Assembly (NCBI RefSeq): GCF_000317085.1
Contig: NC_019702.1
Coordinates: 774,394 to 838,393, forward strand
Length of the DNA: 64,000 nucleotides
Direction of reading: 5' to 3'
Origin: Synechococcus sp. PCC 7502
Lineage (GTDB): Bacteria; Cyanobacteriota; Cyanobacteriia; Pseudanabaenales; Pseudanabaenaceae
Shown here: in pieces, positions 1,972 through 60,184 of the stretch
How positions within the stretch are numbered: the first letter of the stretch is position 1
How the letters are laid out: each line of letters starts with the position of its first letter
Notes under the pieces: model-generated
What the model saw: only the letters and a program-made list of their open reading frames with translations
Databases searched by the model: none
What the model was told of the DNA's origin: nothing
Program-made: the position numbers and the translations under genes

Positions 1972-1976
1972 AATAT

Positions 1977-2333: not shown

Positions 2334-2335
2334 CT

Positions 2336-3091: not shown

Positions 3092-3095
3092 TTTT

Positions 3096-3509: not shown

Positions 3510-3513
3510 ATAA

Positions 3514-3980: not shown

Positions 3981-4005
3981 TTTAAAGTTTATTTGATTAA
4001 AAGTC

Positions 4006-4734: not shown

Positions 4735-4822
4735 TTAAATTTCTGGATTAAATTACTGTTAAATTTCAATTTATTTTCCTGACCAAGACCAGGGTATCCA
4801 CTCAATTAGTTCATCAAAAGCA

Positions 4823-5377: not shown

Positions 5378-5386
5378 GAGGTAAAG

Positions 5387-5788
5387 ATGGCAACTAATGA
5401 TACTATTTCCGACATGCTTACAAGGATTCGTAACGCAACTAGTGCTAAGAACCAAGTTACAGCAATTCCTGCAACTAAAATGACTCAGAGTATTGCGCAG
5501 GTATTAAGACAAGAGGGCTATATCAGTGATTTTGAGGAAATTGGCGAAGGCATAGATCGACGTTTAATGCTTTCCCTAAAATATAAGGGTAAAAATCGCC
5601 AGCCGATTATAACTATGCTTAAAAGGGTTAGTCGTCCTGGTTTACGAGTTTATTCTAATCACAAGGATTTACCGAAGGTTTTAGGAGGAATTGGTATTGC
5701 CATTGTGTCAACGTCCAAGGGAATCATGACTGATCGCGAAGCCCGTAAGCAAGGTGTAGGTGGAGAAATACTCTGCTTTGTTTATTAA
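5387..5788 (+). CDS. rpsH: 30S ribosomal protein S8
   Basis: S8 is a primary 16S rRNA-binding protein and, in enterobacteria, the translational repressor of the spc operon. The 133-residue product begins with [13 protein letters not shown] and ends with the conserved [10 protein letters not shown] motif. It has a strong AGGAGG ribosome-binding site. No rpsN (S14) lies between L5 and S8, the usual cyanobacterial arrangement, with S14 encoded elsewhere. Confidence 0.96.
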
Positions 5789-5818
5789 TTTTAGTTTACT
5801 GAATTAGGAGTATCACTT

Positions 5819-6358
5819 ATGTCCAGAATTGGCAAGCGCCCAATCAATATTCCCCCTAAAGTTAGCGTGGCGATCGCAGGTCAAGATGTTACCGTCAAAG
5901 GGGCTAAAGGGGAGTTACATCGCACATTATCTCCCAAAATTGAAATAGTTCAGGATGGTAATAACTTACAGGTAAATCGTCGTGATGATTCAAGATCAGC
6001 AAGACAGCTACACGGTTTATCTCGTACGCTTGTGGCTAATATGATTGAGGGAGTCTCTAATGGCTTTCAGACTCGCCTAGAGATTCAAGGTGTGGGTTAT
6101 CGTGCTCAGGTACAAGGTACCACACTAGTTTTAAATGTTGGTTATAGTATTCCAGTGCAGATTAATCCTCCTTCTGGCATTGATATTAAAGTCGAAGGAA
6201 CTACCAACGTTATTGTCAGTGGTATTAATAAAGAAGTAGTTGGTAATGTCGCTGCCCAAATTCGCTCAGTCCGACCACCTGAAGTTTATAAAGGTAAAGG
6301 TATCCGCTATGCAGGTGAGGTTGTCCGTCGTAAAGCTGGCAAGACTGGGAAGAAGTAA
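5819..6358 (+). CDS. rplF: 50S ribosomal protein L6
   Basis: L6 is a two-domain protein near the factor-binding site of the large subunit. The 179-residue product begins MSRIGKRPINIPP, contains GVYSRAQ-like segment GVGYRAQVQG in the second domain and ends with KGKGIRYAGE and a basic tail. The start is preceded by an AGGAG ribosome-binding site. It is part of the same co-directional run, 30 bp after rpsH. Confidence 0.96.
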   Translation: MSRIGKRPINIPPKVSVAIAGQDVTVKGAKGELHRTLSPKIEIVQDGNNLQVNRRDDSRSARQLHGLSRTLVANMIEGVSNGFQTRLEIQGVGYRAQVQGTTLVLNVGYSIPVQINPPSGIDIKVEGTTNVIVSGINKEVVGNVAAQIRSVRPPEVYKGKGIRYAGEVVRRKAGKTGKK

Positions 6359-6394
6359 GTGAAATTAATATAATAATTTTGAGACGTTAAGGAT

Positions 6395-6757
6395 ATGAAA
6401 ACAAGTCATAAAGAGGCTACTCGTAGTAGACATAAGCGGATAAGACGGAAGCTTTCTGGCACTCCAGAGCGTCCTCGCTTATCAGTTTTTCGCTCAAACA
6501 AACATATAGTTGTGCAGATAATTGATGATGCCAATCAACATACTCTTGTTGCAGCATCTACCTTAGAGTCGGAGCTAAAAACTAGTCTAAGTTCCACCGC
6601 AAATTGTGAAGCCTCTGCTAAGGTGGGAGAGTTAATTGCCCAACGAGCGATCGCTAAAGGAATATCTCAAGTTGTATTTGATCGTGGCGGCAATCTTTAC
6701 CACGGACGTATAGAAGCATTGGCTGAAGCAGCACGGGCATCGGGACTAGTTTTTTAG
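6395..6757 (+). CDS. rplR: 50S ribosomal protein L18
   Basis: L18 binds 5S rRNA together with L5. The 120-residue product has a basic N-terminus ([20 protein letters not shown]), the central [12 protein letters not shown] strand and the C-terminal [19 protein letters not shown] signature (shown within 20 residues). Spacing to rpsE is 80 bp of AT-rich sequence holding short repeats of TTGAATTAGTTAAAT type. Confidence 0.95.
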
Positions 6758-13238: not shown

Positions 13239-13330
13239 TTGTGCTAATACTTAAGTATTTCAGGAACCTAAAAGTCTAACTTTCAAGTCTTATTTTTAGA
13301 GTCTTTGGGATTGCTAGTTATTTCTTGAAT

Positions 13331-14194
13331 ATGATGAAAAGTATTAAGCGACTGGTTGTATATGCCCTGCGTCGTTGTCGTAAATTTCTTTTGGCAGTAG
13401 TAATTACGACGTTGTTAGCAATTTTGGTCAATCCCTATTCAGCCCATTCATTGGATTTATCAGATTTATTACGCATTGTGCCTAGTGTAATTCAAGTAGT
13501 AGAGATTTCTAATATTTCCGATACCGATGAAGTTAAATTGGGTAGCCAGATTAATCGTAATATTTTGTCTCAGGTGCGTTTGAGTCGAAATCGGGAAGCT
13601 AATAATCTGGTTAAAAGCATTGGTGCGGAGTTAGTCCCTCAGAGCGATCGCCCCAATATTCCCTATACATTTCAAGTTGTAGATGATCCTGATATAAACG
13701 CTTTTGCCACGATGGGGGGCTTTGTCTATATAAATACTGGTACTATTGCCGCCGCAGATAATCGAGCGCAATTGGCTAGTGTGATTGCCCATGAGATGGG
13801 TCATATTGCGGGTAGGCATGCCCTAGAACAGGTGAAGCAACAGGCAATTACCCAAGGGATTGTGTCTATTGTGGGTGCTGATCGCAATCAGATTGTGAAT
13901 ATTGGCACTGAGTTGGCTTTGCGGTTACCTAATAGTCGAGAAGCAGAATTTGATGCCGATCGCCGTGGACTCCAAAACCTGAATAATGCCGATTATGCTG
14001 TGCAAGCTATGCCAGATTTTATGCAAAAGTTAGCACGGAGTTCTAATAATGCCCCTGATTTTTTAAATACACATCCTGCGGTTAAAGATCGAATTGTGGC
14101 TTTGAATCAAATGATTAGAGATAATAGCCTTCAGGGATACAAAGGTTTGGATAATACTGCATATCAAAAACGCTGGCGATCGGCGAGATTTTAG
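13331..14194 (+). CDS. M48 family zinc metalloprotease
   Basis: A secreted or periplasmic M48-type peptidase (HtpX/Ste24/BepA/Oma1-like clan). The zinc motif HEMGH is at residues 154-158 counted from the ATG at 13331, and the third ligand is expected in SREAEFDADRRG near residue 200. An N-terminal hydrophobic segment (about residues 17-37) serves as a signal or anchor. I prefer the ATG at 13331 over the TTG six bases upstream. The short C-terminal region lacks clear TPRs, unlike BepA. A role in envelope-protein quality control is inferred from the family. Confidence 0.85.
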   Translation: MMKSIKRLVVYALRRCRKFLLAVVITTLLAILVNPYSAHSLDLSDLLRIVPSVIQVVEISNISDTDEVKLGSQINRNILSQVRLSRNREANNLVKSIGAELVPQSDRPNIPYTFQVVDDPDINAFATMGGFVYINTGTIAAADNRAQLASVIAHEMGHIAGRHALEQVKQQAITQGIVSIVGADRNQIVNIGTELALRLPNSREAEFDADRRGLQNLNNADYAVQAMPDFMQKLARSSNNAPDFLNTHPAVKDRIVALNQMIRDNSLQGYKGLDNTAYQKRWRSARF

Positions 14195-14200
14195 GACAAT

Positions 14201-14389
14201 TTATTTGACATTACGTTCCGAACTCTCCCAGCCTGCGGGTGCCATGATAATTAATTCTCCCGTACTTGTTAACTCTAGGCGCAGATCGGGGTTTAGCTGA
14301 CACAAACGCTCAAATTGAGAGTGATCGGCATGGAGAACCATATCACTGACGTTTAATATTAAATCCGTTGGAGATTGAGCTACGGACAT
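14201..14389 (-). pseudogene. Truncated Uma2 family endonuclease (DUF820) remnant
   Basis: Only 62 codons remain. The segment FERLCQLNPDLRLELTSTGE followed by LIIMAP is the characteristic N-terminal part of the Uma2/DUF820 family, which is massively amplified in cyanobacteria and normally about 190 residues long. The whole catalytic PD-(D/E)XK core after the MAP motif is missing; the frame ends within seven bases of the protease gene stop. I infer a deletion remnant and no activity. Confidence 0.75.
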
Positions 14390-49248: not shown

Positions 49249-49645
49249 AGTTATTTATTTAAGTCCAGTCTTGGCGGTCTAGTCAGTTATGATCTATTTT
49301 AACCTATGTGCTACCCCCCCCGCCTTGAATCAAGATAAACCATGGCTATAATTCTTAGCTGATTGGTACTATATTTTGTCCCCTTTTCTTGTAAAAAATC
49401 CAACAATTATCCACAATGCTCCAATAGCAGCGAGCACATATATACCCTTGTACCTGAACCATCACAGTAAATTATCAAAGAAATTATCAAGTACTTTAAA
49501 TGCCCATGCGCCTAACTACGAATAGACTGATCACTGCGGCAATGGTATAAGTATTTCCCTTGATTTCATAAATTAGATATTTGCAGATAATTTACGAATT
49601 GACTATATTTCCAATTCCCAAAAGATTCTTAAACAGAGTTTTAAA
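49249..49645. other. Intergenic region between gyrA and the integrated element
   Basis: 397 bp of chromosomal sequence, AT-rich apart from a run of eight Cs at about 49313-49320. It should contain the gyrA promoter. No gene is seen. The integration site begins directly after it. Confidence 0.4.
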
Positions 49646-49703
49646 ATGGGGGAAGAGGGACTTGAACCCTCACGACTTATAAGGTCAACGGATTTTAAGT
49701 CCG
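49646..49703. repeat. attL: left 58-bp direct repeat (tRNA-Leu 3' fragment)
   Basis: Identical over 58 bp to 60100-60157. It carries the 3' part of tRNA-Leu from the anticodon stem to the acceptor end and lacks the 5' part, so it is not a tRNA gene. It is the original chromosomal 3' end displaced by integration. Confidence 0.92.
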
Positions 49704-49812
49704 ATGTACAAATCATAAAAATAGCTTTGAAATAAGAATCTTAGAGATTATTAATTTATAAGTTCTTAAATTTTGCCTTAGAATTTAGGCATGATATTAA
49801 AGGCTAAACAAA

Positions 49813-50118
49813 ATGACAGCAATCACACTATCTACAGACATCCCATCAAACATCACAACACTTGAGCAGCTCCATGTCTGGACATCGGTAGCTTTAGCAA
49901 CCTGCAACCCAACAAAGCAGATAGTCGAGTCAGAAAATAGTACCGAATTTACTTGTCGATATTTTGTTGCACTTGCCTATGACGCAACTACTAGGTGTGT
50001 TGATCGAATAAGCATCCCTATCGATCCGACTTATGTATCAGACAAGAGTAAAAAATTCTGGATGTTTGCCAATCCTATTTCAGATACTGCCTTACCATCA
50101 ACTTTCAAAGCTAACTAG
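49813..50118 (+). CDS. Hypothetical protein, first gene of the unknown block
   Basis: 101 residues, from an ATG with AAAGG 13 bp upstream. The product is beta-prone with three cysteines (TCNPTK, FTCRYFVAL, RCVDRISIPI) and no TM. The stop TAG abuts the ATG of the next gene (TAGATG), so the two are translationally coupled. I recognise no family. Its place at the head of a block ending in lysis genes suggests a structural or virion role, which is inference only. Confidence 0.55.
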   Translation: MTAITLSTDIPSNITTLEQLHVWTSVALATCNPTKQIVESENSTEFTCRYFVALAYDATTRCVDRISIPIDPTYVSDKSKKFWMFANPISDTALPSTFKAN

Positions 50119-52164
50119 ATGTTTGCAGCCCCTGCACTGCCATTAGTTCCACCCGTGCCGGTTGTGCCAACGCCGACGGCACCAAATTCTAATTATTCTT
50201 TGCCAGATTTACCACCAATCCCAGCCCCTAATATCCCCGGTCTATCTAACTTAACCAGTGGCACTCAAAAGCTATTAGATTCTTTATTTGGGACACCGCC
50301 GGCGGCAGCCCCAACATTGCCAAGAGACTTTAAGGATCGGAAGTTTATAAGTCCTGCTCCTGCAACCCCTGATAGTTTAGGAAAATTACCATTTAGAGGC
50401 GGTCAAAGTGTAGGCGTTAACTACACTGTAAATTACAGTTATATATATACTCGCCCCGGTATTAACCCTCAAAGTGGGAGTACTGCAGTAGTTGTAGTAG
50501 GTCCACTAAGCGCATTTGAAGTTATTGACGGACCGCCTGACTCATCCCAAATCTCACTAAAAGTAGTTGATAGGGATGGCACAAGATATTTTCTGACTAG
50601 GACTGGTAAAGCAGTTGATCCAGCAATTACACTAACCGTTACGATAATTAGTATTACCAGAAATGATAACCAACCTGATACAGGGGGGAATCCGCCTGCT
50701 GTTGGTGGTAATCCTGCTGGTGTAGGTAATCAATTAACACCACCACAGGTTTATGGTTTTGGTCCGACTACAGCCCCGCCAGTTCCAAAGACAGCCCCTA
50801 AAAGGAAACCACCCATAACACCAAGACCTGATGAGAAACCAGACGAAAGAATAAAGCCATTCCCACGCCCCGGCACACCTAACGAAAAACCTAAAAATCC
50901 ACCTGCTAAACCAGAAACACCAAAAGAACCACCAGCTAAACCGGGAGAGAAACCGGGGACACCTAAAGCTCCACCTTTAGACCCACCAACATTACCCCCT
51001 GTTAGCCCACCTAAGCCAGATACAACACCTAAACGAGAAACACCGTCTAAACCTGCTGACGACCCAAATACTAAACCAGATGCACCAACCAAGCCACTAG
51101 ATAACCCTAAGATAGATCGTCCTGAGACTCCAAATCAAAGACCCGATCCTGTTAGGATTCCTCCATTAATTCCTTCTCAGACTCCCCAAGAGCCGCAGCA
51201 AGACCAAGAAAAAGAGAAGGTAGGAATTCCACCTGCTTTACCAACTCCACCCACAATTACCCCGGGTACAAACCAACCAACTCCACCAACAATTATCTCA
51301 CCTCCACAATTACCACCGGGTAGTAATCCACCGGGGTCTAGTAATGGTGGTCAAATCACTACAGGTAATCAAAATTCTGGAAATAACAACAATAATTCTA
51401 ATAATGGCAGTGGTCCAGGGATTGATGAAGTTAGCCAACAAATTAAGGATTTAGACCGCAAAATTGGCTCACTCACGGGTAATAACGTCACCAACATCAC
51501 TAATATCAATAATCAAGGCATGACCTGCCAAGAGCTTAAAGATTGCCTATCTGGTAATACAGAGACTGCCAACATCAAGAAGTTCAAACAATGTAACTTA
51601 ACCACTGGGGAACCTGAGTTTGAGACTGTGCAGATACAGGTTAACAAGGGTGATAAGGCTGCTATTGAAGCTATTGCGGAAAGATTAGCTAATGTTGAAG
51701 GTCAACAATGTAAAGAGTGTGATGCTGTTGCACTAGTTCCTGAATGGTGGCAAGTCAGAACAGGTCAAAGACCACAATTAGTTGTGAGGTTTCAAAATAT
51801 TAAAGAGGATGGGACTATTGGTGATTCCAAATGGTCATTATCTATTCCACATTACAACAGAGATCAAAATTTTAAACCTAGGTTTCCTAATTATAAAAAA
51901 GGTGATATTCAAGGAATATTAGTACTTGATGATAATAGTAAGGTTATTGTTAATTGCTTTAATATAACTGAAGCAAAAAGGGTAATAGCGGCTATAAAAC
52001 AATATATTGATCCAAACTTTTTAAAAAATAGTTATGAAAAGTATGGTGAGAGAAAAGGTAACGCATTTAGTCAAGTTCAAGTTAAAGCTATATTTGCAAA
52101 ATATTTCCCAGATGGACAAAAAAATACTACTCCTGAATGGACTATAAAGTTGGTTGGAGATTAA
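50119..52164 (+). CDS. Proline-rich, multi-domain protein (681 aa), candidate adsorption/virion protein
   Basis: 681 residues in three parts. An N-terminal region (1-190) has Pro-rich segments and a beta domain (GVNYTVNYSYIYTRPG onward). A very Pro/Lys-rich linker (about 200-420) is followed by an Asn/Ser/Gly stretch. The Cys-containing C-terminal part (about 430-681) has a coiled-coil segment SQQIKDLDRKIGSL, CxxC-like QQCKECD and a compact domain with LVPEWWQVRTGQRPQLVV and SLSIPHYNR. No signal peptide or TM. The domain-linker-domain plan resembles surface-attachment proteins of phages (inference); no family recognised. Confidence 0.6.
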   Translation: MFAAPALPLVPPVPVVPTPTAPNSNYSLPDLPPIPAPNIPGLSNLTSGTQKLLDSLFGTPPAAAPTLPRDFKDRKFISPAPATPDSLGKLPFRGGQSVGVNYTVNYSYIYTRPGINPQSGSTAVVVVGPLSAFEVIDGPPDSSQISLKVVDRDGTRYFLTRTGKAVDPAITLTVTIISITRNDNQPDTGGNPPAVGGNPAGVGNQLTPPQVYGFGPTTAPPVPKTAPKRKPPITPRPDEKPDERIKPFPRPGTPNEKPKNPPAKPETPKEPPAKPGEKPGTPKAPPLDPPTLPPVSPPKPDTTPKRETPSKPADDPNTKPDAPTKPLDNPKIDRPETPNQRPDPVRIPPLIPSQTPQEPQQDQEKEKVGIPPALPTPPTITPGTNQPTPPTIISPPQLPPGSNPPGSSNGGQITTGNQNSGNNNNNSNNGSGPGIDEVSQQIKDLDRKIGSLTGNNVTNITNINNQGMTCQELKDCLSGNTETANIKKFKQCNLTTGEPEFETVQIQVNKGDKAAIEAIAERLANVEGQQCKECDAVALVPEWWQVRTGQRPQLVVRFQNIKEDGTIGDSKWSLSIPHYNRDQNFKPRFPNYKKGDIQGILVLDDNSKVIVNCFNITEAKRVIAAIKQYIDPNFLKNSYEKYGERKGNAFSQVQVKAIFAKYFPDGQKNTTPEWTIKLVGD

Positions 52165-52239
52165 CCACGAACTGAACTTACTTGTCTTTAACTATTAGAA
52201 AACATAGGCTTTAGATGTTCACTCACACATGAAAATCTA

Positions 52240-52749
52240 ATGTCAACATTTACCCCCGGAACTGGTGGAACTTTAGAATCTACTAATTTACCATCTGCTT
52301 TTCTTGAAGTATCAAGAGTTCTAGTTCAAGCCGAAAATACCCGTAATGCTGCTAACTCTGGCGTAGCTCCTATTAACAACATCACTGCTAGTTTAAGTAT
52401 TGATGGTGGAGTTGCTTCCATAGCCGCTACTATTCCTATTGCTCCAACTTTATCTACCAGTGGAGTCCCAACAATTGCCGCTCAAAATTATCTCGGTTCA
52501 ACTTACACAACTTTTGCTCCCGGTACAGGTGGAACTCTTAAAAGCACTAATACCATTGCCGCATTTTTAGAAACTGCTCAATTATTAGCCAGTGCAGAAA
52601 AAGCAGTAACCCCTGTGGAAAATCAGCCTAACAACATCCAAATTACCTATGATTTGGAAGCTTCTCAAGCTACTATTTCCGCTAATTTACCTTTTAGTTC
52701 CACATCTGTTAGCGGTGATATTACTATTGAAGCTCTCGACTACTTGTAA
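52240..52749 (+). CDS. Duplicated-repeat protein (169 aa), candidate structural protein
   Basis: 169 residues consisting of two tandem copies of about 82 residues. STFTPGTGGTLESTN near the start matches TTFAPGTGGTLKSTN at about 89-103, and QNYL at about 81-84 matches the terminal LDYL. Each unit has a helical segment rich in Ala (LEVSRVLVQAEN, LETAQLLASAEK) followed by alternating beta residues ending in AATIPI or SANLPF. No Cys, no TM. This suggests a multimeric building block. Family unknown to me. Confidence 0.6.
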   Translation: MSTFTPGTGGTLESTNLPSAFLEVSRVLVQAENTRNAANSGVAPINNITASLSIDGGVASIAATIPIAPTLSTSGVPTIAAQNYLGSTYTTFAPGTGGTLKSTNTIAAFLETAQLLASAEKAVTPVENQPNNIQITYDLEASQATISANLPFSSTSVSGDITIEALDYL

Positions 52750-52805
52750 ACCTAATTTCAGGAATTTAATTAACTCAAATTAGCAAAAAATAAGTAGGTG
52801 AAATT

Positions 52806-53228
52806 ATGGCAACAACAACTAAAAGAGCAAAGGTTGGACCTAGAGCATCGGTTGTAATTGGCACTGTTAAAAAGACCATTGGCGGTAAATCTAAAACCGT
52901 TAAATTGGTTAGTTACATGGCTAAATCTACTGCTGATTTCTTTGGATTCAAGACGGAAGCGGTAAAGAGTACGGCGACTAAAAGCGCAGGTGGTAAGACC
53001 GTAGCTCCACGTTTAATTCGTGGCTCTATCGGTGCTGGATCGATCAAGGTTCCAGCAGGCAAAACTAGCGCAGCTAAGGGTGGTGTGCAAAAATTTAAGC
53101 AGATTCCTATCCCTAGCGGTGCTACTAATGTCCAGATTGAGGCATTTCTCAAGACTGCCACTAAAAACAAGCCTACAAGCTTTGTTTCGAGGGATGGTAG
53201 GACTTATGCAGTAAGCGGTACTAAATAG
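52806..53228 (+). CDS. Basic protein (140 aa), candidate nucleic-acid-binding or capsid component
   Basis: 140 residues with high Lys content (more than 25 Lys) and few acidic residues, giving a very basic protein. The N-terminus TTTKRAKVGPRASVVIGTVK and repeated Lys-Ser/Thr-Ala patterns precede a small domain with PSGATNVQIEAFLKTATKN and VSRDGRTYAVSG. A putative ribosome-binding site AAGTAGGTG lies upstream. The stop overlaps the next start. Basic small proteins in this position often bind DNA in virions; the assignment is inference. Confidence 0.55.
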   Translation: MATTTKRAKVGPRASVVIGTVKKTIGGKSKTVKLVSYMAKSTADFFGFKTEAVKSTATKSAGGKTVAPRLIRGSIGAGSIKVPAGKTSAAKGGVQKFKQIPIPSGATNVQIEAFLKTATKNKPTSFVSRDGRTYAVSGTK

Positions 53229-53530
53229 TGTTTATCTATAGGCAAAGTTTCACTAGGCTTGATTCTTTGCCTATTTATATTCCTGTTTTAATCGACAGCG
53301 ATCGCATTGTTTTTGGCATTGAAGTAGAAAATCAGCTACGAACATGGAACCGTGCGGGTACTTTAACCAGAAAGGTTTTATTAGATGGGATTGGTTTTGC
53401 TGTCGAAGAGCCTAAAACCTTAGCGATCGCTAAAAATATTTTAGAGTTCCAACCAGAGGGTAACTATCGGCTCGAATTTACCCCTTTTAAGTGGATTCAA
53501 AATTACACCATATCAATCTGGAAGTTATGA
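53228..53530 (+). CDS. Hypothetical protein (100 aa)
   Basis: Begins at a GTG that shares its first base with the preceding stop (TAGTG). The 100-residue product is beta-rich and slightly acidic (LPIYIPVLIDSDRIVFGIEV, LEFQPEGNYRLEFTPF). No TM and no recognised family. It overlaps the following gene by four bases (ATGA). Because of coupling on both sides it is surely part of the block; the function is unknown. Confidence 0.55.
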   Translation: MFIYRQSFTRLDSLPIYIPVLIDSDRIVFGIEVENQLRTWNRAGTLTRKVLLDGIGFAVEEPKTLAIAKNILEFQPEGNYRLEFTPFKWIQNYTISIWKL

Positions 53531-53775
53531 CAAGTTCCCAAATCCCAGAACCACAAAATTCTAAAGCTATTCAGTTCCATCAAATCGCTAATATCATCTT
53601 AACTGTGATTTTGGGAGGTGCTATAACATCATGTGCATCATTCATAATTCAGACAAATAACTCTCTGATTTTGCTATCGGAAAAGATGCAAGTTTTATCA
53701 AGTGTGACATCTAAACTATCGGATAAGATAGATAAATTTGATGATAGGTTGAGAACTCAGGAGATGAGAAAATAG
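53527..53775 (+). CDS. Small single-TM protein with coiled coil, holin/spanin-like
   Basis: I place the start at the ATG at 53527, overlapping the previous stop as ATGA; a GTG 36 bases earlier is in frame but less likely. The 82-residue product has a cytoplasmic N-terminus, one TM (IANIILTVILGGAITSCASF, about 20-39) and a coiled-coil tail (LLSEKMQVLSSVTSKLSDKI). This topology directly before the endolysin gene is what one expects of a holin or membrane-linked lysis helper. Identity is inferred from position. Confidence 0.6.
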   Translation: MTSSQIPEPQNSKAIQFHQIANIILTVILGGAITSCASFIIQTNNSLILLSEKMQVLSSVTSKLSDKIDKFDDRLRTQEMRK

Positions 53776-53777
53776 TT

Positions 53778-54407
53778 ATGATTAATCTTTTAGACGTAGT
53801 TAAATACTTTAAGTCACAATCTCATCAAATAAAGGCTTTGCAGATTCTCAATAACAAGATTGCGAGTTCTTATCCTGAACTATTAGATGATTCTCAAGAA
53901 TGGGTAAAGGAATGGAGAAGTGTTAATAATTTCTCTTTGACTGATTCAAAAAGCGAAGGTATCAATTCTAATCTTAAAGCTTTCCTTTTAGCGATAAGAG
54001 TACATGAGGGAACTAGTGGAAGTGATGGGTATAATTTGATTTTTACGGGTAAATATCTTTCTGATTTTTCCGATCATCCCAGACAAGAATATTGTGCTGG
54101 GGATTTATGCAGTGATGCTGCTGGGGCATACCAATTTCTAAGCACTACATGGGATGTGGTCAAAAAAAGGTTAAACCTTAGAGATTTTTCACCACAAAAC
54201 CAAGACCTTGGGGCAATTGAGTTAATTAAAATGCGGGGTGCTTATGATTTTGTGATCAAGGGTGATTTACCCAATGCGTGCGATCGCTGTTCTTGGGAAT
54301 GGGCAAGTATGCCAGATCGTAATGGTAATGGCAGATATGGACAACCTAACTGTAGCTTTGCTGAGTTTAGGAAATTGTTTATAAAATATGGTGGTAAGCC
54401 TTTATGA
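53778..54407 (+). CDS. GH104 (lambda R-type) endolysin
   Basis: 209 residues. From about residue 70 it follows phage lambda R lytic transglycosylase: LAIRVHEGTSGSDGYNLIF with catalytic Glu77, then FSDFSDHPR-like DFSDHPRQEY, AGAYQFLSTTWD (115-126), LRDFSPQNQDLGAIELI and the C-terminal DRCSWEWASMP. It cleaves the peptidoglycan glycan strand. The N-terminal about 65 residues are an unrelated helical extension. No signal peptide, so a holin is needed. It starts 2 bp after the TM protein and overlaps the next gene by 4 bp. Confidence 0.88.
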   Translation: MINLLDVVKYFKSQSHQIKALQILNNKIASSYPELLDDSQEWVKEWRSVNNFSLTDSKSEGINSNLKAFLLAIRVHEGTSGSDGYNLIFTGKYLSDFSDHPRQEYCAGDLCSDAAGAYQFLSTTWDVVKKRLNLRDFSPQNQDLGAIELIKMRGAYDFVIKGDLPNACDRCSWEWASMPDRNGNGRYGQPNCSFAEFRKLFIKYGGKPL

Positions 54408-54565
54408 ATTCCCGTATGCCAGTAATTTTAAGCTTGGCTGTTTGTACTTTCTGCTTAGTTATGATTGCAAGTGGTAAAAATGAGGCTCAATATTGGAGTA
54501 CAGTTACAGGAATTTTAGGTTATTGGATGCCTCAACCTTTAGCAAATACACCTAAAAGGGATTAA
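54404..54565 (+). CDS. Small membrane protein (53 aa), holin candidate
   Basis: ATG at 54404 overlaps the endolysin stop (ATGA). The 53-residue product has a TM at about 5-22 (MPVILSLAVCTFCLVMIAS) and a second short hydrophobic stretch (TVTGILGYWMPQP). Two hydrophobic segments in a very small protein next to an endolysin fit a class II-like holin. The stop overlaps by three bases the end of the CAP-domain gene on the other strand. It was too short for simple ORF thresholds but is well supported by coupling. Confidence 0.7.
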   Translation: MNSRMPVILSLAVCTFCLVMIASGKNEAQYWSTVTGILGYWMPQPLANTPKRD

Positions 54566-55167
54566 TTATTCTGACAGTCGCCCTGAATCCTGTCTTTTGA
54601 GCTTGTGATAAATGCACATACTGAACCATGACAGCCAATAGCCCCAGTAACGTGATATTCCCTAAGAATATAATCTTTCATTGAATATCTGGGATTATTA
54701 ACATAACTTTCAAAGACTTGCTGCAAAGACATTCCATATCCTTTAGCCATACCACCGCCCCCGAAGGGATAATAGTATGACATTGTTGTTTCAAAAACCT
54801 GCTCATCTTCATTAAAGCCAAATTGCTTTTTTAGGGTTATTGCACATATCCCAGTTTTAGGATTTGTATCTGCTATGTAGCCCTCGGTGTCCATATCTTT
54901 TGCACGAGCAACTGCAAGACTATATGCTCTGTCATCCCACATAATGGGTTTTAATCCTTTTTTGGCTCTCAGAGAGTTTATATATTCCATGTTTTTATCT
55001 GATTCTTGCCAAGAACTAAAGATATAAGCTCCATCAGGTCGATAGTCATAAGCAGTAGTTCTATTGGGAATAGACTGCATATAAGCTGCACATCCAAGTC
55101 CCAAAAAAATAAACCCAAAAGCTAATTTCTTTTGAGTATTTGTACTAATTCTGTCTTTTATTCTCAT
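54562..55167 (-). CDS. Membrane-anchored CAP/SCP-like domain protein
   Basis: 201 residues with an N-terminal TM anchor (LAFGFIFLGLGCAAYMQS, about 15-32). The mature domain resembles the CAP/SCP fold of cyanobacterial and phage secreted proteins: NSLRAKKGLKPIMWDDRAY, then LAVARAKDMDTEGYIADTNPK, with conserved Cys pairs near the end (IGCHGSVCAF). Transcribed opposite to the lysis block and in the same direction as the repressor, so it may be expressed in the lysogen. A moron/cargo role in altering the host surface is plausible but unproven. Confidence 0.65.
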   Translation of the reverse strand: MRIKDRISTNTQKKLAFGFIFLGLGCAAYMQSIPNRTTAYDYRPDGAYIFSSWQESDKNMEYINSLRAKKGLKPIMWDDRAYSLAVARAKDMDTEGYIADTNPKTGICAITLKKQFGFNEDEQVFETTMSYYYPFGGGGMAKGYGMSLQQVFESYVNNPRYSMKDYILREYHVTGAIGCHGSVCAFITSSKDRIQGDCQNN

Positions 55168-55169
55168 CT

Positions 55170-55526
55170 TTACCCCACGCTTTCTGCGATCGCATACAAT
55201 CTATCAGAAACAGCCCGACCTAATAAAGCTAAATCCTTTGCAGGCATATATCTCACCTCTGCAACAAGTCTTTCTACAGATATATTGGAATCTCTTTGAC
55301 TATCTTTAGAGTTTCCTTCAAGGTAATCCATTAATTCAGTAAGTGTATAACCGCCCTCACTAGCTATTTTAGAAAGGTTCCCAGACCCCGGGGTTACTTC
55401 TCCATTTTCCCAAGATTGAATAGCACCATGAGTTACCCCCAAACGCTTAGCAAATTCTTTTTGAGTTTGATTACCCCTTAGTTGCTTTACTAAGTTCGCA
55501 AGTTTTAATTTTGACGAGTGGTTCAT
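55170..55526 (-). CDS. Xre/Cro-C1 family repressor
   Basis: I place the start at the ATG at 55526 (NHSSKLKLANLVKQLRG). An upstream extension is open but runs through the operator and promoter DNA. The 118-residue product has the HTH_3 domain QTQKEFAKRLGVTHGAIQSW, ENGEVTPGSGNLSKI (about residues 20-55) and a C-terminal helical part. It ends 2 bp before the CAP-domain gene and is divergent from the CopG-like gene across a 16-bp palindrome, the classical lysogeny-control layout. Confidence 0.82.
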   Translation of the reverse strand: MNHSSKLKLANLVKQLRGNQTQKEFAKRLGVTHGAIQSWENGEVTPGSGNLSKIASEGGYTLTELMDYLEGNSKDSQRDSNISVERLVAEVRYMPAKDLALLGRAVSDRLYAIAESVG

Positions 55527-55657
55527 AGGTATCCACAAATACACATAAACATATATATGTTTTACCACATTTACACATATCTGTATTTGCGAAATTCTGT
55601 ATTGACACATTTATGTATATGCGTTAATAAATATATATCAGTCTAAGAAATATATTT
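55527..55657. promoter_or_regulatory. Divergent lysogeny control region
   Basis: 131 bp between the repressor and the rightward genes. It has a perfect 16-bp palindrome AAACATATATATGTTT at 55547-55562, and a good rightward promoter: TTGACA (55602-55607), 17-bp spacer, TAATAA (55625-55630). Further imperfect ACAYATNTRTGT-like copies lie between (around 55569-55582 and 55605-55622). The palindrome is about 20 bp from the repressor start, where autorepression would act. Confidence 0.65.
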
Positions 55658-55846
55658 ATGTACACTAAATCCAGATTTAACCTTGTCCTAGATGAAGACC
55701 TTGACCTACAAGTCAGGCTCAAAGCCACAGAGAACCGTCAAACCATCAGCGACTTTGTGGCTGAGGCATTGCGGCACTACCTAAAAAACTACGCCCGCAT
55801 TCAAAAGCAGGCACAAAAAAATAAAGAGCCTGAGATTGAGTACTAA
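55658..55846 (+). CDS. Ribbon-helix-helix (CopG-like) protein
   Basis: 62 residues. RFNLVLDEDLDLQVRLKATE followed by NRQTISDFVAEALRHYLKNY is a ribbon-helix-helix pattern with an N-terminal strand and two helices, common in small plasmid and phage regulators. The remaining residues are a Lys/Gln/Glu tail. First gene rightward of the control region, so it may govern the replication operon. Dimeric DNA binding is inferred from the family. Confidence 0.7.
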   Translation: MYTKSRFNLVLDEDLDLQVRLKATENRQTISDFVAEALRHYLKNYARIQKQAQKNKEPEIEY

Positions 55847-55897
55847 CCAGTCTTTGCTCTTTATTAAGTTGTAAATTTACCTAACTAATTAAACATC

Positions 55898-56146
55898 ATG
55901 AAACCAATTAACCACTACACAACAATTAGCGAATATACAGAACAAGTTATAAACAATTTAGATCGATCCCAAAAAATATCTCTAATGTTTTGGATACTCT
56001 CTAAATTGGTGATTGTGTCAGAAGCTTCTGGTTTTTATTTACTTTCAAAATCCAAAATTGAAATCCAAGAACTAAGTCTTAATGAATCACTGGGTTTAAT
56101 TAAAGCACTAGCTGACCAGTGCCAAGAAACCCTAATTTCAAAATAA
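55898..56146 (+). CDS. Small helical protein of unknown function
   Basis: 82 residues, acidic and helical (YTTISEYTEQVINNLDRSQK, LIVSEASGFYLLSKSKIEIQ-like pattern). No recognised domain. It lies between the RHH gene and a terminator-like hairpin, in the early rightward operon. Coding probability is supported by its ATG with spacing to a stop-free frame and by the position. Confidence 0.5.
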   Translation: MKPINHYTTISEYTEQVINNLDRSQKISLMFWILSKLVIVSEASGFYLLSKSKIEIQELSLNESLGLIKALADQCQETLISK

Positions 56147-56152
56147 ATCACT

Positions 56153-56195
56153 GGCGATCGCCCTGATGACTTGGGAGCGATCGCCCTTTTTTTTT
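56153..56195 (+). terminator. Terminator-like hairpin built from two HIP1 octamers
   Basis: GGCGATCGC at 56153-56161 can pair with GCGATCGCC at 56177-56185, followed by nine Ts at 56187-56195. The two HIP1 copies thus form the arms of a terminator in the early operon, so it may attenuate expression of the downstream primase-helicase. Confidence 0.6.
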
Positions 56196-56207
56196 ACCTA
56201 AAAACCT

Positions 56208-56420
56208 ATGGAAGACAAACTAAATCAAGCATCAACCCAAATCCTGATCAATCAAATGATTGGGATATACAACGATCCTAACAAAGACTGTTTTGATAAA
56301 TATTGCGCTGCACGGGCAATAAATCAGGCATTAGGTCAAAACCATGAAGGGCAAAAGCTCAAATATTGGTTTTTAGCATTTTTACTTGAACACAATCAAC
56401 CTCAAACGGACTTATTTTAG
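56208..56420 (+). CDS. Small protein of unknown function preceding primase-helicase
   Basis: 70 residues: EDKLNQASTQILINQMIGIY, then NDPNKDCFDKYCAARAINQA with two cysteines, ending in LFLEHNQPQTDLF-like sequence. All-helical and slightly acidic. It ends 2 bp before the primase-helicase ATG, so it is likely translationally coupled and may be an accessory of replication. No family recognised. Confidence 0.5.
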   Translation: MEDKLNQASTQILINQMIGIYNDPNKDCFDKYCAARAINQALGQNHEGQKLKYWFLAFLLEHNQPQTDLF

Positions 56421-56422
56421 CC

Positions 56423-58705
56423 ATGTTCAAAATTACAGACCATATCGAATTTGACCCCAAGGGCAGAGCATCATGCCCAGTATGTGAAGCAAAGAAAGGT
56501 AAACCAAATAAAAATCTTGCATTGATACCTAATAGTGATGGTGCTTATAAATGCCACAACACATCATGTACTACAGATCTGATTAGAGAGGCAATAGGAC
56601 AACCTAAAGACCAGATTATTCCCAGTGCGATCGCTAAGGCTAAACCAATCAAATACCATGATCAAGAACGCATAGATATAAACAATGAAAAGCTGTTTAA
56701 CGATTCAAAAATAGCTAAAAAGTGGCTCACAGATAGAGGTATTAGCTTATATCTCATACAAAAATTCAAATTAGGCATTGCACTCAGAGAAATCAAAAAA
56801 TATGAACAAGGTAAGTTAGTTGAGAGTAAAGCTTTACCCTGTATCACAGTTCCCTATCAGTACCCAGAAGGATACTTACAGAAATACTTTGTAGCTCCTT
56901 GGCTAACCAGTGAAGAACGATTAGATACCAGAATGATTCAAGATAGTGGGCTTGCTGCTAGATGGTGGTTTACCCAAAAATCAGACTCTAAAGAGGTTTG
57001 GATCTGTGAAGGTGAATGGGATGCAATGTTGATGTCTGAAATTATTAATTGTTCTGAAATTGCTGATTGTGATGTGGCAACCTCAACGGCTGGATCGGGC
57101 AATGTTCCCCAAGACCTTAGACCTCTTGACCAATACGATCACATATTTATCTGGTATGACCTCGATCCTGCTGGAGAGGCTGGAGCCGAAAAATTAGCAA
57201 AAGCAATTGGTAATAGAGCTAAAATTGCCACGGTTCCATATACGGTAGACGCTAAGTTAGGCTGGGATATTAGCGATGCAATAGTTAATGGCTTTAGTTA
57301 CTCTGATTTTGCCAAGGCTAGGGATAATGCTAAGTGTGTTGAAATTCAACCAACGCCAGGAAAGAATAAATTAGCAGATAGACTAATAACCACTGCCGAA
57401 CTAATGGCACGGGCAAAGGATTATACCGATTGGCTGATTGATGAAATATTACCCATCAATGAACTAATACTTTTAGCAGCTTCACCAAGAGCGGGTAAAT
57501 CTTTGATGGCAATGAATATTGCTCAGTGTGTGGCAAGTGGAACTAATTTTTTAGATCGGCCCGTAACACAAGGTTCAGTAATCTATGTCCAGTGTGAGGA
57601 CTCAGAAACTAAGACGAAACAGAGAGCGATCGCCCAAGGTTGGGATGAGAATCTCCCAGTTTACTGGTTAGAAAAATTCAAAATGTCCGAGCTCGCTGAA
57701 CTAATCGAACTGGCAAGAAAGATCGAGCCAAGACTAATCGTATTAGATACTTTGTCCAGGGTGCGTGATGATAACACCACAGAGTCAAGCGCAGAGATGT
57801 CTAGAATTTTGGAACCACTCCAAGAATTTGCCCGTGATCACAATTGCTGTATCCTACCAATTCACCACACAGGCAAAATTAAATTAGAAAATGCCGATGC
57901 CTTAGATGTTTTTGACACTATTAGGGGTAGCAGTGCCATCCGTGCTACTTGCCGTGGAACCTTAGTAATTGCGGCAAATGATCAGGGTTATCGTCTCTGT
58001 GTCGAAAACGGGTATAACAAGCAAGACTTAAAAGTTAGCCTAGACCTAAACTCTCTCACATGGAAACTTTTAGGTAAATGGGGCGTACAAGCTGATGCCT
58101 CCCAATCTGATCAGATATTGGGATTTTTAACAAAAGTACAGTCTGCAACCCTTGAACAACTGTATGAATTTACCAACATAAATAAAGCAAGTTTGTACAA
58201 GGTACTCTCTAGGCTTGTTCATGATAATAGAATCTCCAAAACTGGCTCTAGGAAAGCAGTTGTGTATTCAAAACTGCAAATCGAGCAGCCTAAAACCCAA
58301 TCTGACATATCAGACATGTCAGATACGTTGTCAGATTCCGAAATCCAGACAGAGACAAGCTTAGAGGTGTTATCTGACAAAAATAATATTTTATATATAT
58401 CTGACAACATGGTTAGTAATTTATCAACACATATATCTAACACAGGTGAAGCAAATTTGTCAGATTGTCAGATAAGTACCTCAAATCAAGACACAGCAGG
58501 CGATACCGAATCTGACAAGCAATCTGACAAACCCGTTTTTGTCAGATACAAAGTAGGTTGTCAGGTTGAAATCTTGACTGGTAGGTTCGCTGGCATGAAG
58601 GCTGAAGTCATTGATATACAAGGCGATGAGGTTGAGGTTAAGGCTAAAAAATGGGTGGTTACTCGTTGCTATCCAACTATGTCGTTAAAACTACTTGTCA
58701 GATAA
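56423..58705 (+). CDS. Primase-helicase replication protein (zinc ribbon, TOPRIM, RecA-like helicase, KOW-like tail)
   Basis: 760 residues: zinc ribbon (C18, C21, C44, C49), TOPRIM primase core (EGEWDA at 196-201, DLDPAGE at 246-252), RecA-like ATPase with Walker A SPRAGKS (354-360), Walker B IVLDT (439-443) and HHTGK sensor (481-485), then a winged-helix-like segment (about 550-600). A Ser/Asp-rich linker (about 610-700) encodes the iterons, and the last about 45 residues resemble a KOW domain (GRFAGMKAEV). It should prime and unwind DNA for replication, in the manner of satellite and plasmid primase-helicases. I could not assign it to a named subfamily. Confidence 0.85.
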   Translation: MFKITDHIEFDPKGRASCPVCEAKKGKPNKNLALIPNSDGAYKCHNTSCTTDLIREAIGQPKDQIIPSAIAKAKPIKYHDQERIDINNEKLFNDSKIAKKWLTDRGISLYLIQKFKLGIALREIKKYEQGKLVESKALPCITVPYQYPEGYLQKYFVAPWLTSEERLDTRMIQDSGLAARWWFTQKSDSKEVWICEGEWDAMLMSEIINCSEIADCDVATSTAGSGNVPQDLRPLDQYDHIFIWYDLDPAGEAGAEKLAKAIGNRAKIATVPYTVDAKLGWDISDAIVNGFSYSDFAKARDNAKCVEIQPTPGKNKLADRLITTAELMARAKDYTDWLIDEILPINELILLAASPRAGKSLMAMNIAQCVASGTNFLDRPVTQGSVIYVQCEDSETKTKQRAIAQGWDENLPVYWLEKFKMSELAELIELARKIEPRLIVLDTLSRVRDDNTTESSAEMSRILEPLQEFARDHNCCILPIHHTGKIKLENADALDVFDTIRGSSAIRATCRGTLVIAANDQGYRLCVENGYNKQDLKVSLDLNSLTWKLLGKWGVQADASQSDQILGFLTKVQSATLEQLYEFTNINKASLYKVLSRLVHDNRISKTGSRKAVVYSKLQIEQPKTQSDISDMSDTLSDSEIQTETSLEVLSDKNNILYISDNMVSNLSTHISNTGEANLSDCQISTSNQDTAGDTESDKQSDKPVFVRYKVGCQVEILTGRFAGMKAEVIDIQGDEVEVKAKKWVVTRCYPTMSLKLLVR

Positions 58706-58724
58706 GGAAATTAATATGTCAGAT
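58300..58724. repeat. Iteron cluster: twelve exact TGTCAGAT copies, candidate replication origin
   Basis: TGTCAGAT forward at 58317, 58329, 58458, 58466, 58540, 58696 and 58717; reverse (ATCTGACA) at 58300, 58372, 58399, 58510 and 58522. Near-copies at 58309 and 58559. An AT-rich tract lies at 58379-58400 between two reverse copies, and a DnaA-box-like TTATCAACA is at 58421. Copies occur in all three reading frames and continue into the next gene, so they are a DNA, not a protein, repeat. Confidence 0.8.
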
Positions 58725-58925
58725 GAAATTTTAACCACCAAGGAAATGGCAAGTAAACTCAAGGTTTCTACCGATCATTTACTTGATTTATGCAAAGATG
58801 GCACTCTACAGCCCCAAATTCACTTTATTGACATCAGGAAACAAAGTAGTTCTAAACCCTGCTATAGATTCAAAATGCAAGCCTGTTTAGAGCGTTTTGC
58901 TATCCCTGCTGATGTTCGGAGCTAG
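58716..58925 (+). CDS. Excisionase/AlpA-like helix-turn-helix protein
   Basis: 69 residues from the ATG at 58716 with AAGGA upstream; the frame also opens at a TTG seven codons earlier. The pattern ILTTKEMASKLKVSTDHLLD followed by LCKDGTLQPQIHFIDIR resembles the MerR-like/HTH_17 fold of excisionases. Its 3' end overlaps the end of the integrase gene on the opposite strand by 39 bp. Placement beside the integrase supports a recombination-directionality role. Two iterons overlap its start. Confidence 0.65.
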   Translation: MSDEILTTKEMASKLKVSTDHLLDLCKDGTLQPQIHFIDIRKQSSSKPCYRFKMQACLERFAIPADVRS

Positions 58926-60038
58926 TGGGCGATCGCTTCGATTCATCAACAGATCGTAAGCTTTTTGATGATGGCGATCGCTAATCCAATGATGATATTG
59001 CTCTGAGTGTACCTGTACTGAATGTCCCATTTGTTGAGCAGCTAGGCTAATATCCAGTCCAAACTCTAAAGTCCTAATAGCCCAACAGTGCCGTAGGTCA
59101 TAGGGTTTAAAGCTAAGTTCATATCTTGAAAATGCCTTAGTAACTCTGCTACCTAACTCTGTATTATTTTTGCCTGTTACCACTGGGAGTTTAATATTTT
59201 GCAAATCAAAATCTACTGCCCATTCAGGGTAACAAGCCCATACCCTACGGCGATCAGTTTTAGTCCCATCTGTAATTGTGGCGATCGGGAAGTCTGCAAA
59301 GTCTAAGTAAAATATTTCGTGAGGTCTTAACCCGTATGTTGCCAGTACACCATATACCCATTGCCATTGTGGATTTTTAATTTTATAAAAGGTTTCGGCA
59401 ATCAAGCGATCGTCTGGTAAGTTTCTGGGTGTTGCTCGCTTGGGGGAGTAGTTGCCGCTAAGTTGGGATAAGTCAATATCGATGTGAGCAAACTTAGCTA
59501 AGGCTCCTAGAGCCATGCAATATCGCTTTCTAGTTCTGGTATCTGGGGTAGTTGTAAGAACCAAGTTCTTAATTATCTCTGCATTAAGGGCTTGATTTGG
59601 CAGATGTTTAAATACTTCTAGGTAATCTTTTGCCCATGTAGTTTCAGATTTTGGTGATCGCTGTCTGCGAGTGAAATAATCTTGCTCAAATTTTGTTACC
59701 CAGTCTTTCCCAAGTTCAGTATTTATAGCCTGTTTTAGGTAAGGTTCCCAAGAAAATTGCTCTAGGTCTAATAATGCCCCTATCTTTCTTGCCTGTGCCT
59801 CAGCAGTAGATACACCAGCCCCGTTAGCATGAACCCCAAGAGCTAATTTTTGTTGATGTTGTTGTTTTATTTTTGAAGTTGGCTTAGGCGGGAAAGTTGC
59901 CTGTAAATATAGCCTATTTCCTTTCAATATGATTGATACGCCGACTTTTGCCGCTTTTAATCTGCCATTTGCCTGTGAAATTTTACCCTCAATCACGGTT
60001 CTTAAATTTTGCCTTAAAAAAATAGCGGTATATACCAA
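58887..60038 (-). CDS. int: Tyrosine recombinase (integrase)
   Basis: 383 residues from a TTG at 60038; a GTG at 59996 (residue 15) is an equally plausible start and fits the family N-terminus. Catalytic residues: Arg238 in GLRPHEI, Arg316 in YDLRHCWA, His339 in MGHS and the nucleophile Tyr348 in SEQYHHW. The first position of the HxxR box is Tyr313. N-terminal residues 15-60 form an arm-binding-type domain. It lies against attR, in the usual position for a tRNA-targeting integrase. It should insert and, with the adjacent small HTH protein, excise the element. Confidence 0.93.
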   Translation of the reverse strand: MVYTAIFLRQNLRTVIEGKISQANGRLKAAKVGVSIILKGNRLYLQATFPPKPTSKIKQQHQQKLALGVHANGAGVSTAEAQARKIGALLDLEQFSWEPYLKQAINTELGKDWVTKFEQDYFTRRQRSPKSETTWAKDYLEVFKHLPNQALNAEIIKNLVLTTTPDTRTRKRYCMALGALAKFAHIDIDLSQLSGNYSPKRATPRNLPDDRLIAETFYKIKNPQWQWVYGVLATYGLRPHEIFYLDFADFPIATITDGTKTDRRRVWACYPEWAVDFDLQNIKLPVVTGKNNTELGSRVTKAFSRYELSFKPYDLRHCWAIRTLEFGLDISLAAQQMGHSVQVHSEQYHHWISDRHHQKAYDLLMNRSDRPLAPNISRDSKTL

Positions 60039-60069
60039 GATAAACCACTATAAACCGTTATTAACCAGT
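60030..60069. repeat. Four tandem 10-bp repeats, candidate integrase arm sites
   Basis: ATATACCAAG, ATAAACCACT, ATAAACCGTT and ATTAACCAGT lie in direct register at 60030, 60040, 60050 and 60060. The array is immediately inside attR and overlaps the upstream integrase start. It resembles the arm-type binding sites of lambda-like integrases and could link integrase autoregulation to recombination. Confidence 0.65.
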
Positions 60070-60099
60070 ATCAAGATATTGGATTTACTGGATTTTAAG

Positions 60100-60157
60100 A
60101 TGGGGGAAGAGGGACTTGAACCCTCACGACTTATAAGGTCAACGGATTTTAAGTCCG
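60100..60157. repeat. attR: right 58-bp direct repeat
   Basis: Identical to attL at 49646-49703. It supplies the 3' part of the tRNA-Leu gene, so the tRNA remains functional after integration. Confidence 0.92.
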
Positions 60158-60184
60158 CAGCGTCTACCATTCCGCCACTCCCCC
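60101..60184 (-). tRNA. tRNA-Leu (anticodon UAA), intronless
   Basis: 84 nt on the minus strand, acceptor stem GGGGGAG/TTCCCCC with discriminator A. The T arm has GAGGG-TTCAAGT-CCCTC, and a long variable arm (class II) is present. The anticodon loop CTTAAAA gives anticodon UAA. In many cyanobacteria this tRNA carries a group I intron after U34, but here the loop is uninterrupted. CCA is not encoded. The 3' 57 nt belong to the attR repeat. Confidence 0.93.

Follow-up and report, generated by a model that had tools for sequence, protein, structure and literature searches.

The 64-kb stretch of the Synechococcus sp. PCC 7502 genome that was analyzed here, in the following referred to as the window, contains a complete-looking integrated element of 10.5 kb (positions 49,646-60,157), which is inserted in a tRNA-Leu(TAA) gene. 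The element is bordered by a direct repeat (49639-49703 and 60093-60157), in which 64 of 65 bases are the same and the final 58 are perfect; these 58 bp constitute the left and right attachment (att) repeats at 49646-49703 and 60100-60157, the latter being located within the 3' part of the intact target gene (60101-60184, minus strand). A 22-bp repeat is present once inside each element end (49762-49783, with a 21/22 match to 59998-60019), and this pair may represent arm sites of the integrase. Between the intact att sites, every open frame of the element is intact. The left part is composed of the co-directional genes g1-g2-g3-g4-g5-g6-endolysin-g8, the middle of a minus-strand pair encoding an Xre-type repressor and a CAP-domain protein, and the right part of the integrase, an excisionase-like gene, a primase-helicase, two small genes, and a ribbon-helix-helix (RHH) regulator. 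No empty site was recovered from the sole genome of the same genus, in which the tRNA-Leu gene is located 248 bases from a contig start and has a left neighbour unlike the left flank of the window. Scans for promoters and terminators returned fewer sites than in shuffled sequence.

The first five genes, all on the plus strand, make up a conserved block. The 101-amino acid product of g1 (49813-50118) has relatives, which other elements encode at the corresponding position. The g2 protein (50119-52164; 681 amino acids) combines a Pro-rich middle with a conserved C-terminal domain of about 210 amino acids and is proposed to be a spike or stalk; g3 (52240-52749) encodes an acidic protein of 169 amino acids (isoelectric point, pI, 4.1), built from two copies of a unit of about 80 amino acids comprising a helix and three strands, which is proposed to be a shell protein. 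The 140-amino acid product of g4 (52806-53228) is very basic (pI 11.1) and is proposed to be a DNA-binding core protein, and g5 (53228-53530) encodes a conserved protein of 100 amino acids. None of the five gave a match to Pfam or PHROGs at E <= 0.01, the best being that of g3 to phrog_37482, a family of unknown function (E 0.016). The charge of the two proteins recurs in the relatives described below: all 25 of 25 g4-position proteins have a pI of 9.6-11.1, and 29 of 31 g3-cluster proteins have a pI of at most 6.1. The ratio of nonsynonymous to synonymous substitution rates (dN/dS) is 0.03-0.20 over 12 pairs of g3, g4, and g5, with the lowest values for g4 (0.03-0.10); the three genes are under purifying selection.

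The architecture of the block proteins is variable. The g3 unit, tandem in the window, is single in some elements, and g4-position proteins, as read off the alignment, also occur singly and doubly in some elements. The stalk of g2, Pro-rich in the window, is Ala-rich and coiled-coil-like in Nostoc relatives, with the C-terminal domain being kept. In several Nostocaceae loci (among them L066, 9518-10528, and L070, 5092-6111), g3 is fused behind a part of about 170 amino acids, which resembles a small helix-turn-helix (HTH)-type gene adjoining g3 in other elements. The AlphaFold model of g3 (pLDDT 75.9, pTM 0.76) displays a helix and three strands per unit; its best Foldseek match in the PDB was not significant (E 0.11), a second structural comparison reached a best Z of 3.5, and a viral library a best E of 0.025. 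The g4 model (pLDDT 69.9, pTM 0.61) had a best Foldseek E of 2.3 and no Z >= 2 among 53 chains. When profiles were compared with solved structures, g4 reached a best E of 0.51, the g2 C-terminal domain a best E of 0.058 (antibody chains), and g3 matched an engineered tandem cyanovirin-N at E 4e-4 and natural cyanovirin-N at E 0.44-0.72 (residues 14-68). A cyanovirin-N-like nature of g3 was rejected and the match taken as chance, because the predicted unit consists of a long helix and three strands.

The remaining genes are those of integration, regulation, replication, and lysis. The tyrosine integrase (58887-60038, minus strand; phrog_1, E 4.7e-17) is accompanied by an excisionase-like HTH protein (58695-58925, plus; phrog_2907, E 1.2e-6), and the Xre-type repressor (55170-55610, minus; PF01381, E 4.9e-11) by an RHH/Arc-type regulator (55658-55846, plus), whose match to phrog_582 (E 2.9e-4) is below the Pfam cut-off. 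Two small plus-strand genes of no assigned function (55898-56146, 82 amino acids; 56208-56420, 70 amino acids) precede the primase-helicase (56423-58705, plus), which has a zinc-ribbon-like start followed by Toprim and AAA_25 domains (phrog_239, E 2.4e-40; AAA_25, E 2.9e-30). The sequence TGTCAGAT or its reverse complement is present in 14 copies in the window, 12 of which are clustered, in either orientation, in the last part of the primase gene and immediately past it (58300-58724); this iteron cluster is the probable origin of replication. The endolysin (53778-54407, plus) is of the phage lambda lysozyme type (phrog_90, E 6.4e-35; E about 5e-26 to the solved chains 3d3d and 1am7), while in the relative L068 an amidase (PF01520, E 3.7e-28) is found in its place. 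It is flanked by g6 (53491-53775, plus; 94 amino acids), a weak holin- or spanin-like candidate with one hydrophobic segment and coiled-coil-like matches (Rz-like spanin phrog_739, E 0.03; DUF7365, E 0.007), and by g8 (54404-54565, plus; 53 amino acids), a weak holin candidate with one hydrophobic segment. The CAP-domain protein (54562-55167, minus; PF00188, E 7.5e-7) has a hydrophobic N-terminal segment; its gene lies back to back with that of the repressor, and kin CAP genes occur in the relatives L011, L059, L176, and L182. A defence island was considered and rejected: PADLOC returned no match for nine of 10 proteins, and the primase matched a DnaG-like entry only (E 3.8e-5).

Searches of the window element for virion machinery were negative at the level of sequence. 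No terminase large subunit, portal, major capsid protein, or Zot, and likewise no relaxase, secretion-system, or transfer gene, was matched among the 16 proteins of the window element in Pfam and PHROGs; the only packaging-labelled match is that of the HTH part of the Xre repressor to the small-terminase family phrog_57 (E 0.0019). A preliminary description of this region had claimed a complete-looking 10.5 kb element with perfect 58-bp att repeats, an intact integrase, an excisionase-like gene, an Xre/RHH switch, a primase-helicase with iterons, a lambda-type endolysin, and five genes of no known family, with no recognised virion machinery. The repeats, the intact tRNA gene, the clustered TGTCAGAT copies, and the matches given above bear this out. 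Its two holin-like neighbours of the endolysin hold in that g6 and g8 each possess one hydrophobic segment; family matches are weak and confined to g6. The CAP-domain gene and the two small genes had not been named. Its interpretation, a satellite using host phage capsids or else an unrecognised small temperate virus, is supported in part, with the balance inclining to the virus.

The block is found far beyond the window. Relatives of g2 are present in seven of 38 genomes of the order, own genome included, and a profile of the g2 C-terminal domain matches 14 of 386 genomes of the phylum, again including the own one. A g3 profile built from seven sequences matches 32 of 388 cyanobacterial genomes of the class, in 22 of 160 genera, and 25 of the 32 matching genomes had not been used to build it. 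Named hosts are Anabaena catenula, Nostoc, Calothrix, Goleter, Stenomitos, Myxacorys, and Pseudanabaena. Altogether, 51 distinct loci, gathered by matches to g2, g3, integrase, primase, or element DNA, were annotated, genes being counted up to 8 kb from a core gene. The g2 class (49 loci), in which neighbouring stalk proteins are included by single linkage, and g3 (42 loci) are both inflated by the way in which the loci were gathered; further counts are 39 for the g4-position gene, 38 for the g5-type, 29 for the integrase, 27 for the g1-position gene, 14 for a small membrane protein of two families, and 10 for the window-cluster primase, all of them lower bounds, since many loci end at contig ends. 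Among the 42 loci with g3, the g2 class is present in 41, the g4-position gene in 35, the g5-type in 33, the g1-position gene in 25, and an integrase within 8 kb in 22. L052, in which no core gene was called, was left out, as were entries representing the same contigs as others (L225 and L227, as L067 and L069; L071-L075, as L046, L010, L014, L047, and L012).

Identities do not follow the hosts. Window g4 is 54% identical to its counterpart in Myxacorys and 20-23% to those in two Pseudanabaena of its own family, and window g3 is 60% identical to that of Anabaena catenula, 46-50% to three Pseudanabaena, and 55% to one further Pseudanabaena. This closeness across host kinship points to exchange across orders. 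Several relatives encode fibre-type proteins, namely, L051 (705 amino acids; phrog_13173, E 9e-27), L055 (500 amino acids; phage tail repeat PF12789, E 5e-20), and L057 (596 amino acids; tail spike phrog_29706, E 3e-7), and the g2 class of L070 is also fibre-type by its family matches. Two observations on neighbouring sequence may be added. In L065 (about 1000-6500 and 12960-14300), copies of a 985-bp tandem repeat border, left and right, an element that has integrase, g1, g2, g4, and g5-type genes, and this arrangement may reflect array insertion or an assembly effect; at the right ends of L014 and L015 (17.2-20.0 kb), a second, inverted primase-type copy directly follows the element, as if two elements adjoin.

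Beside the window element, a second att-to-att member was found in Goleter apudmare (L070, JAHHHF010000062.1), a 13471-bp contig carrying an identical 46-base sequence at either end; these ends look like a tRNA 3' end by eye, and ARAGORN finds no whole tRNA. It encodes a window-cluster integrase, a DnaB-type primase, small regulators, g1-type, g2-class, HTH-fused g3, g4, and g5 proteins, and membrane proteins. Two further relatives are free circles, both filed as plasmids with nearly all genes annotated as hypothetical. pMIC7113.08 of Allocoleopsis PCC 7113 (NC_019743.1, 20803 bp) carries g3 (E 1.5e-30), a short integrase (E 3e-64), and g2-class and g5-type genes, and the unnamed plasmid NZ_CP064893.1 of Tolypothrix sp. 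PCC 7601 (20757 bp) carries g2-class, g4-type, g5-type, and d20 genes, its g2-class protein being 33% identical to that of L059 over 97% of the length (E 9e-69). No large terminase, portal, or major capsid protein was seen in L070 (17 proteins; 25 of its 28 matched PHROGs listed) or among the annotated genes listed for pMIC7113.08 (29 of 30) and the Tolypothrix circle (27 of 30); the labels obtained in the three are tail-type, with one "virion structural protein" and one "minor tail protein". Besides the primase-helicase, a motif search for another P-loop in the window element or L070 yielded one chance match in the L070 g1-type protein. The large terminase phrog_2 was absent from eight of eight element-bearing genomes, in a search whose control matched six of 14 known genomes.

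Mobility of the family is apparent from its integration sites. In Pseudanabaena 'Roaring Creek', an element begins about 140 bp past a 57-bp, 88% copy of the window att, and a second contig contains g1-like, CAP, Xre, RHH, and primase genes between tRNA-Leu(TAA) and a conserved flank gene, the primase matching that of the window at E 7e-284. In a third genus, an integrase fragment (E 8e-100) lies beside tRNA-Leu(TAA), which, by these gene neighbourhoods, is a repeated integration target of the family; in L179 and L183, members adjoin tRNA-Thr(TGT). The preliminary description had suggested looking for the same gene order in tRNA-Leu of other cyanobacteria, where it was found in 'Roaring Creek', and in viromes, where it was not: scans of IMG/VR, virome contigs included, confirmed no relative. 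It had further named two outcomes contrary to its view, and what was obtained is no match of the block to a known satellite or virus family, and relatives in other genomes in place of isolated decay. A broken copy is present in G627 (L147). The window's own genome contains a truncated g1-like copy with 85% identical DNA and transposase genes near (G000:C3:2974164-2974448; L174, 8206-8367), which is the trace of a related insertion.

Targeting of the family by clustered regularly interspaced short palindromic repeats (CRISPR) was observed in one array of a related cyanobacterium (L178, G023:C33:6500-10500), which has a 37-nt repeat in 32 exact copies. Spacer 8 (35 nt) matches the integrase of an element in G030 at 35/35 positions, an element in G016 at 31/31, and the window (58960-58988) at 28/29, scoring 69.9, 61.9, and 50.1 bits, respectively, compared with a maximum of 36.2 bits in 930 shuffled spacers. 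The G030 element carries g2-class, g4-type, and g5-type genes. Taken at the level of these matches, the spacer shows that hosts treat carriers of the integrase as invaders, which is no proof of a virion. Spacer 13 (42 bits, 21/21, several Pseudanabaena loci) was not counted as targeting of the family, because it matches intergenic repeats at two or more places in a locus, and spacer 10 (18/18) is at control level. Of eight short matches to the L070 block that were located in Nostocaceae genomes, none (0/8) lay in a CRISPR array.

A membrane P-loop ATPase of about 390 amino acids with an N-terminal hydrophobic stretch is encoded by some relatives (L068, 10408-11565; L125, 13323-14513; L152, 5282-6442; L224, 344-1566, split into two frames) and also lies about 7 kb from the core of L053. 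Its resemblance to FtsK (E 2e-4) and HerA (E 4e-4) is weak and below the cut-off, and it may serve some members in packaging or partition. As a constant part of the family it was rejected: it matches 16 of 38 element-bearing genomes, mostly away from the element, and is missing from the window's genome.

We are evenly poised on whether the element belongs to a family of temperate viruses, probably with double-stranded DNA, that is spread across cyanobacteria and forms a particle of no described kind; this is the reading favored here. Site-specific integration by Int and Xis, a repressor switch, and its own replication are temperate-virus traits in a broad sense, all present in the window element. 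The formation of virions is suggested by the conserved block, the fibres of relatives, the one CRISPR spacer, and the circular relatives. We lean toward a virus because of the wide spread, conservation, and self-contained nature of the module, because several relatives have fibre-like proteins and some exist as free circles, and because phrog_2, the one terminase family searched for, was found in none of the eight genomes. Following induction via the Xre/RHH switch, Int and Xis would excise a circle, and the primase-helicase would replicate it, starting at the iterons. An extracellular particle would be built by the g1-g5 block: the very basic g4 would condense the DNA, the acidic tandem-repeat protein g3 would form a shell together with g5 and g1, and g2 would serve as a spike with a stretchable stalk and the conserved 210-amino acid domain. 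Separate fibres of several relatives would bind the host, and g6/g8 and the lysozyme would eventually open the cell. Since no packaging motor was detected in either att-delimited member, the genome would become enclosed as the particle assembles, without being pumped in. A more far-reaching proposal, which is put forward tentatively and with rather more doubt than trust, is that of a new high-rank group of DNA viruses, so far confined to cyanobacteria, with novel folds of g3, g4, and g2, whose smallest members would be motor-less and enclose a g4-condensed genome during assembly; integrated in tRNA genes or existing as 20 kb circles recorded as cryptic plasmids, such viruses would be missed by standard virus finders.

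Several observations weigh against a viral nature. For the window element, no virion, induction, or circle was seen. No detectable kinship exists between the families d4 and d5 at the g4 position or between d6 and d7 at the g1 position, and for this reason "g4" and "g1" denote positions held by more than one family each. The endolysin is inconstant, being absent from the PHROG families listed for L070 (25 of 28), and the stretches retrieved for four Pseudanabaena relatives (L010, L013-L015) yielded no integrase; their ends also lack a convincing att repeat (12-15 bp only). The tail-fibre matches of the relatives fall on repetitive, coiled-coil-like sequence and therefore indicate a fibre more than a tail. 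The separate fibre gene of L010 and its kin has no Pfam match and no counterpart in the window; its likeness to a receptor-binding tip, which it may be, is the author's reading of an alignment. To these are added the cyanovirin-N match of g3, the occurrence in some relatives of an FtsK/HerA-like ATPase, for which a motor-less virion has no need, and the target of spacer 8, an integrase, which other elements could share. Phage records (INPHARED) contain no relative by g2 class or g3, the window primase giving 260 weak partial matches, and the IMG/VR null points in the same direction, tempered by the consideration that a virus collection chosen by known viral markers would miss such a family.

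The main rival explanation, a phage satellite, is unlikely, albeit one to be taken seriously. The element would excise and replicate by itself and be packaged by a tailed helper, the block being a replacement adsorption apparatus that, together with its own lysis genes, shifts the helper's host range. A size of 10.5-13.4 kb, tRNA integration, a primase with iterons, and the lack of capsid, portal, and large terminase are in accordance with a satellite; fibre-like proteins suit a re-targeting role, and absence from virus collections fits as well. The endolysin does not, since published satellites are described in PMC11389934 as being without their own means to lyse the cell. Neither a capsid-remodelling nor a packaging-redirecting gene occurs among the 16 proteins, so wide a family would need an equally wide helper, and phrog_2 was found in none of the eight element-bearing genomes, although a helper could come from outside or use another terminase family. 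If the element is a satellite, it brings genes of its own for host recognition and lysis, in contrast to those described in PMC11389934 and PMC10803314. If, on the other hand, the favored viral reading holds and the block makes a particle, a whole lineage of cyanobacterial viruses has gone under the names of hypothetical genes and cryptic plasmids and is missing from the virus collections searched. Both readings are testable now, since relatives are at hand in the culture-collection strains Tolypothrix sp. PCC 7601 and Allocoleopsis PCC 7113.

That the element is integrative and plasmid-like, with the block being a surface, adhesion, or lysis-release system and spread occurring by conjugation in trans, vesicles, or competence, is regarded as improbable. 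Such an element would explain why two relatives are filed as plasmids and why a relaxase-like gene, called by eye (L144, 4725-6713), lies some 1.7 kb from the element on a 178 kb contig of G521; a location at the surface is possible for Pro-rich, coiled-coil, and carbohydrate-binding proteins, and the CAP protein starts with a hydrophobic stretch. It would leave the very basic g4 hard to explain at a cell surface, the 16 proteins contain no relaxase or secretion-system match, and the lambda-type lysozyme, the Xre/RHH switch, and Xis beside Int are phage-like. Highly improbable, finally, is a decayed tailed prophage whose genes for head and packaging have been lost. Tail-fibre-type matches in some relatives, the broken copy in L147, and the g1 fragment elsewhere in the window's genome would be expected of it, but frames and att sites are intact, the gene set recurs in 22 of 160 genera under purifying selection, and a remnant would not hold one gene order across cyanobacterial orders. 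Decay is contradicted by the intact, recurring, and selected block; an interpretation of g1-g5 as tailed-phage remnants was considered and rejected.

With regard to known systems, the element is judged to be of a new kind, with the proviso that we infer the particle from genes. Searches of the open-access literature listed no paper on this family. Phage satellites (P4-like, PICI, PLE, and PICMI) share with it the size, integration at a tRNA gene or fixed site, their own primase and origin, and the lack of recognised virion genes; it differs from them by the endolysin, the fibre-like proteins of relatives, and the g1-g5 block in many genera, and by having no known remodelling or packaging gene. 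The cfPICI, according to PMC11389934 and PMC10803314, make recognisable phage-type capsids; the likeness would lie in bringing part of the own particle, whereas the window element has no phage-type capsid or packaging gene that sequence comparison would recognise. Tycheposons and VEIMEs of marine bacteria are described in the available parts of the same two papers (PMC10803314, PMC11389934) as integrative, in some cases in cyanobacteria, and as proposed to travel in phage particles; the g1-g5 block is not mentioned for them there, and they are set apart by description only. Compared likewise at sequence level, the window element lacks the large terminase, portal, and HK97-type capsid of tailed phages (Caudoviricetes), and its 16 proteins include no relaxase or transfer genes as in integrative conjugative or mobilisable elements. 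Small tail-less temperate viruses, such as Inoviridae, PRD1/PM2-like viruses, Pleolipoviridae, and Plasmaviridae, have small genomes, some of them integrate, some are without a packaging motor, and spike and fibre proteins occur. In contrast to these, no Zot-type ATPase, jelly-roll capsid, or packaging ATPase is matched in the window element, and Foldseek returned no significant match for the models of g3 and g4. Specifically, it has no Zot/pI match as in Inoviridae, the hydrophobic 53-amino acid g8 being placed in the lysis group. Neither the jelly-roll capsid nor the FtsK/HerA-type ATPase of PRD1/PM2-like viruses (Varidnaviria) is recognised in it by sequence, but the ATPase with weak FtsK and HerA matches lies in or by some relatives, and g3 and g4 are the only proteins folded; a relationship to these viruses may exist. 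By sequence, the endolysin falls clearly within the phage lambda lysozyme family: its Glu-Gly-Thr stretch aligns with the same stretch of 1am7, and it is distinguished from the lambda enzyme by about 60 extra N-terminal residues.

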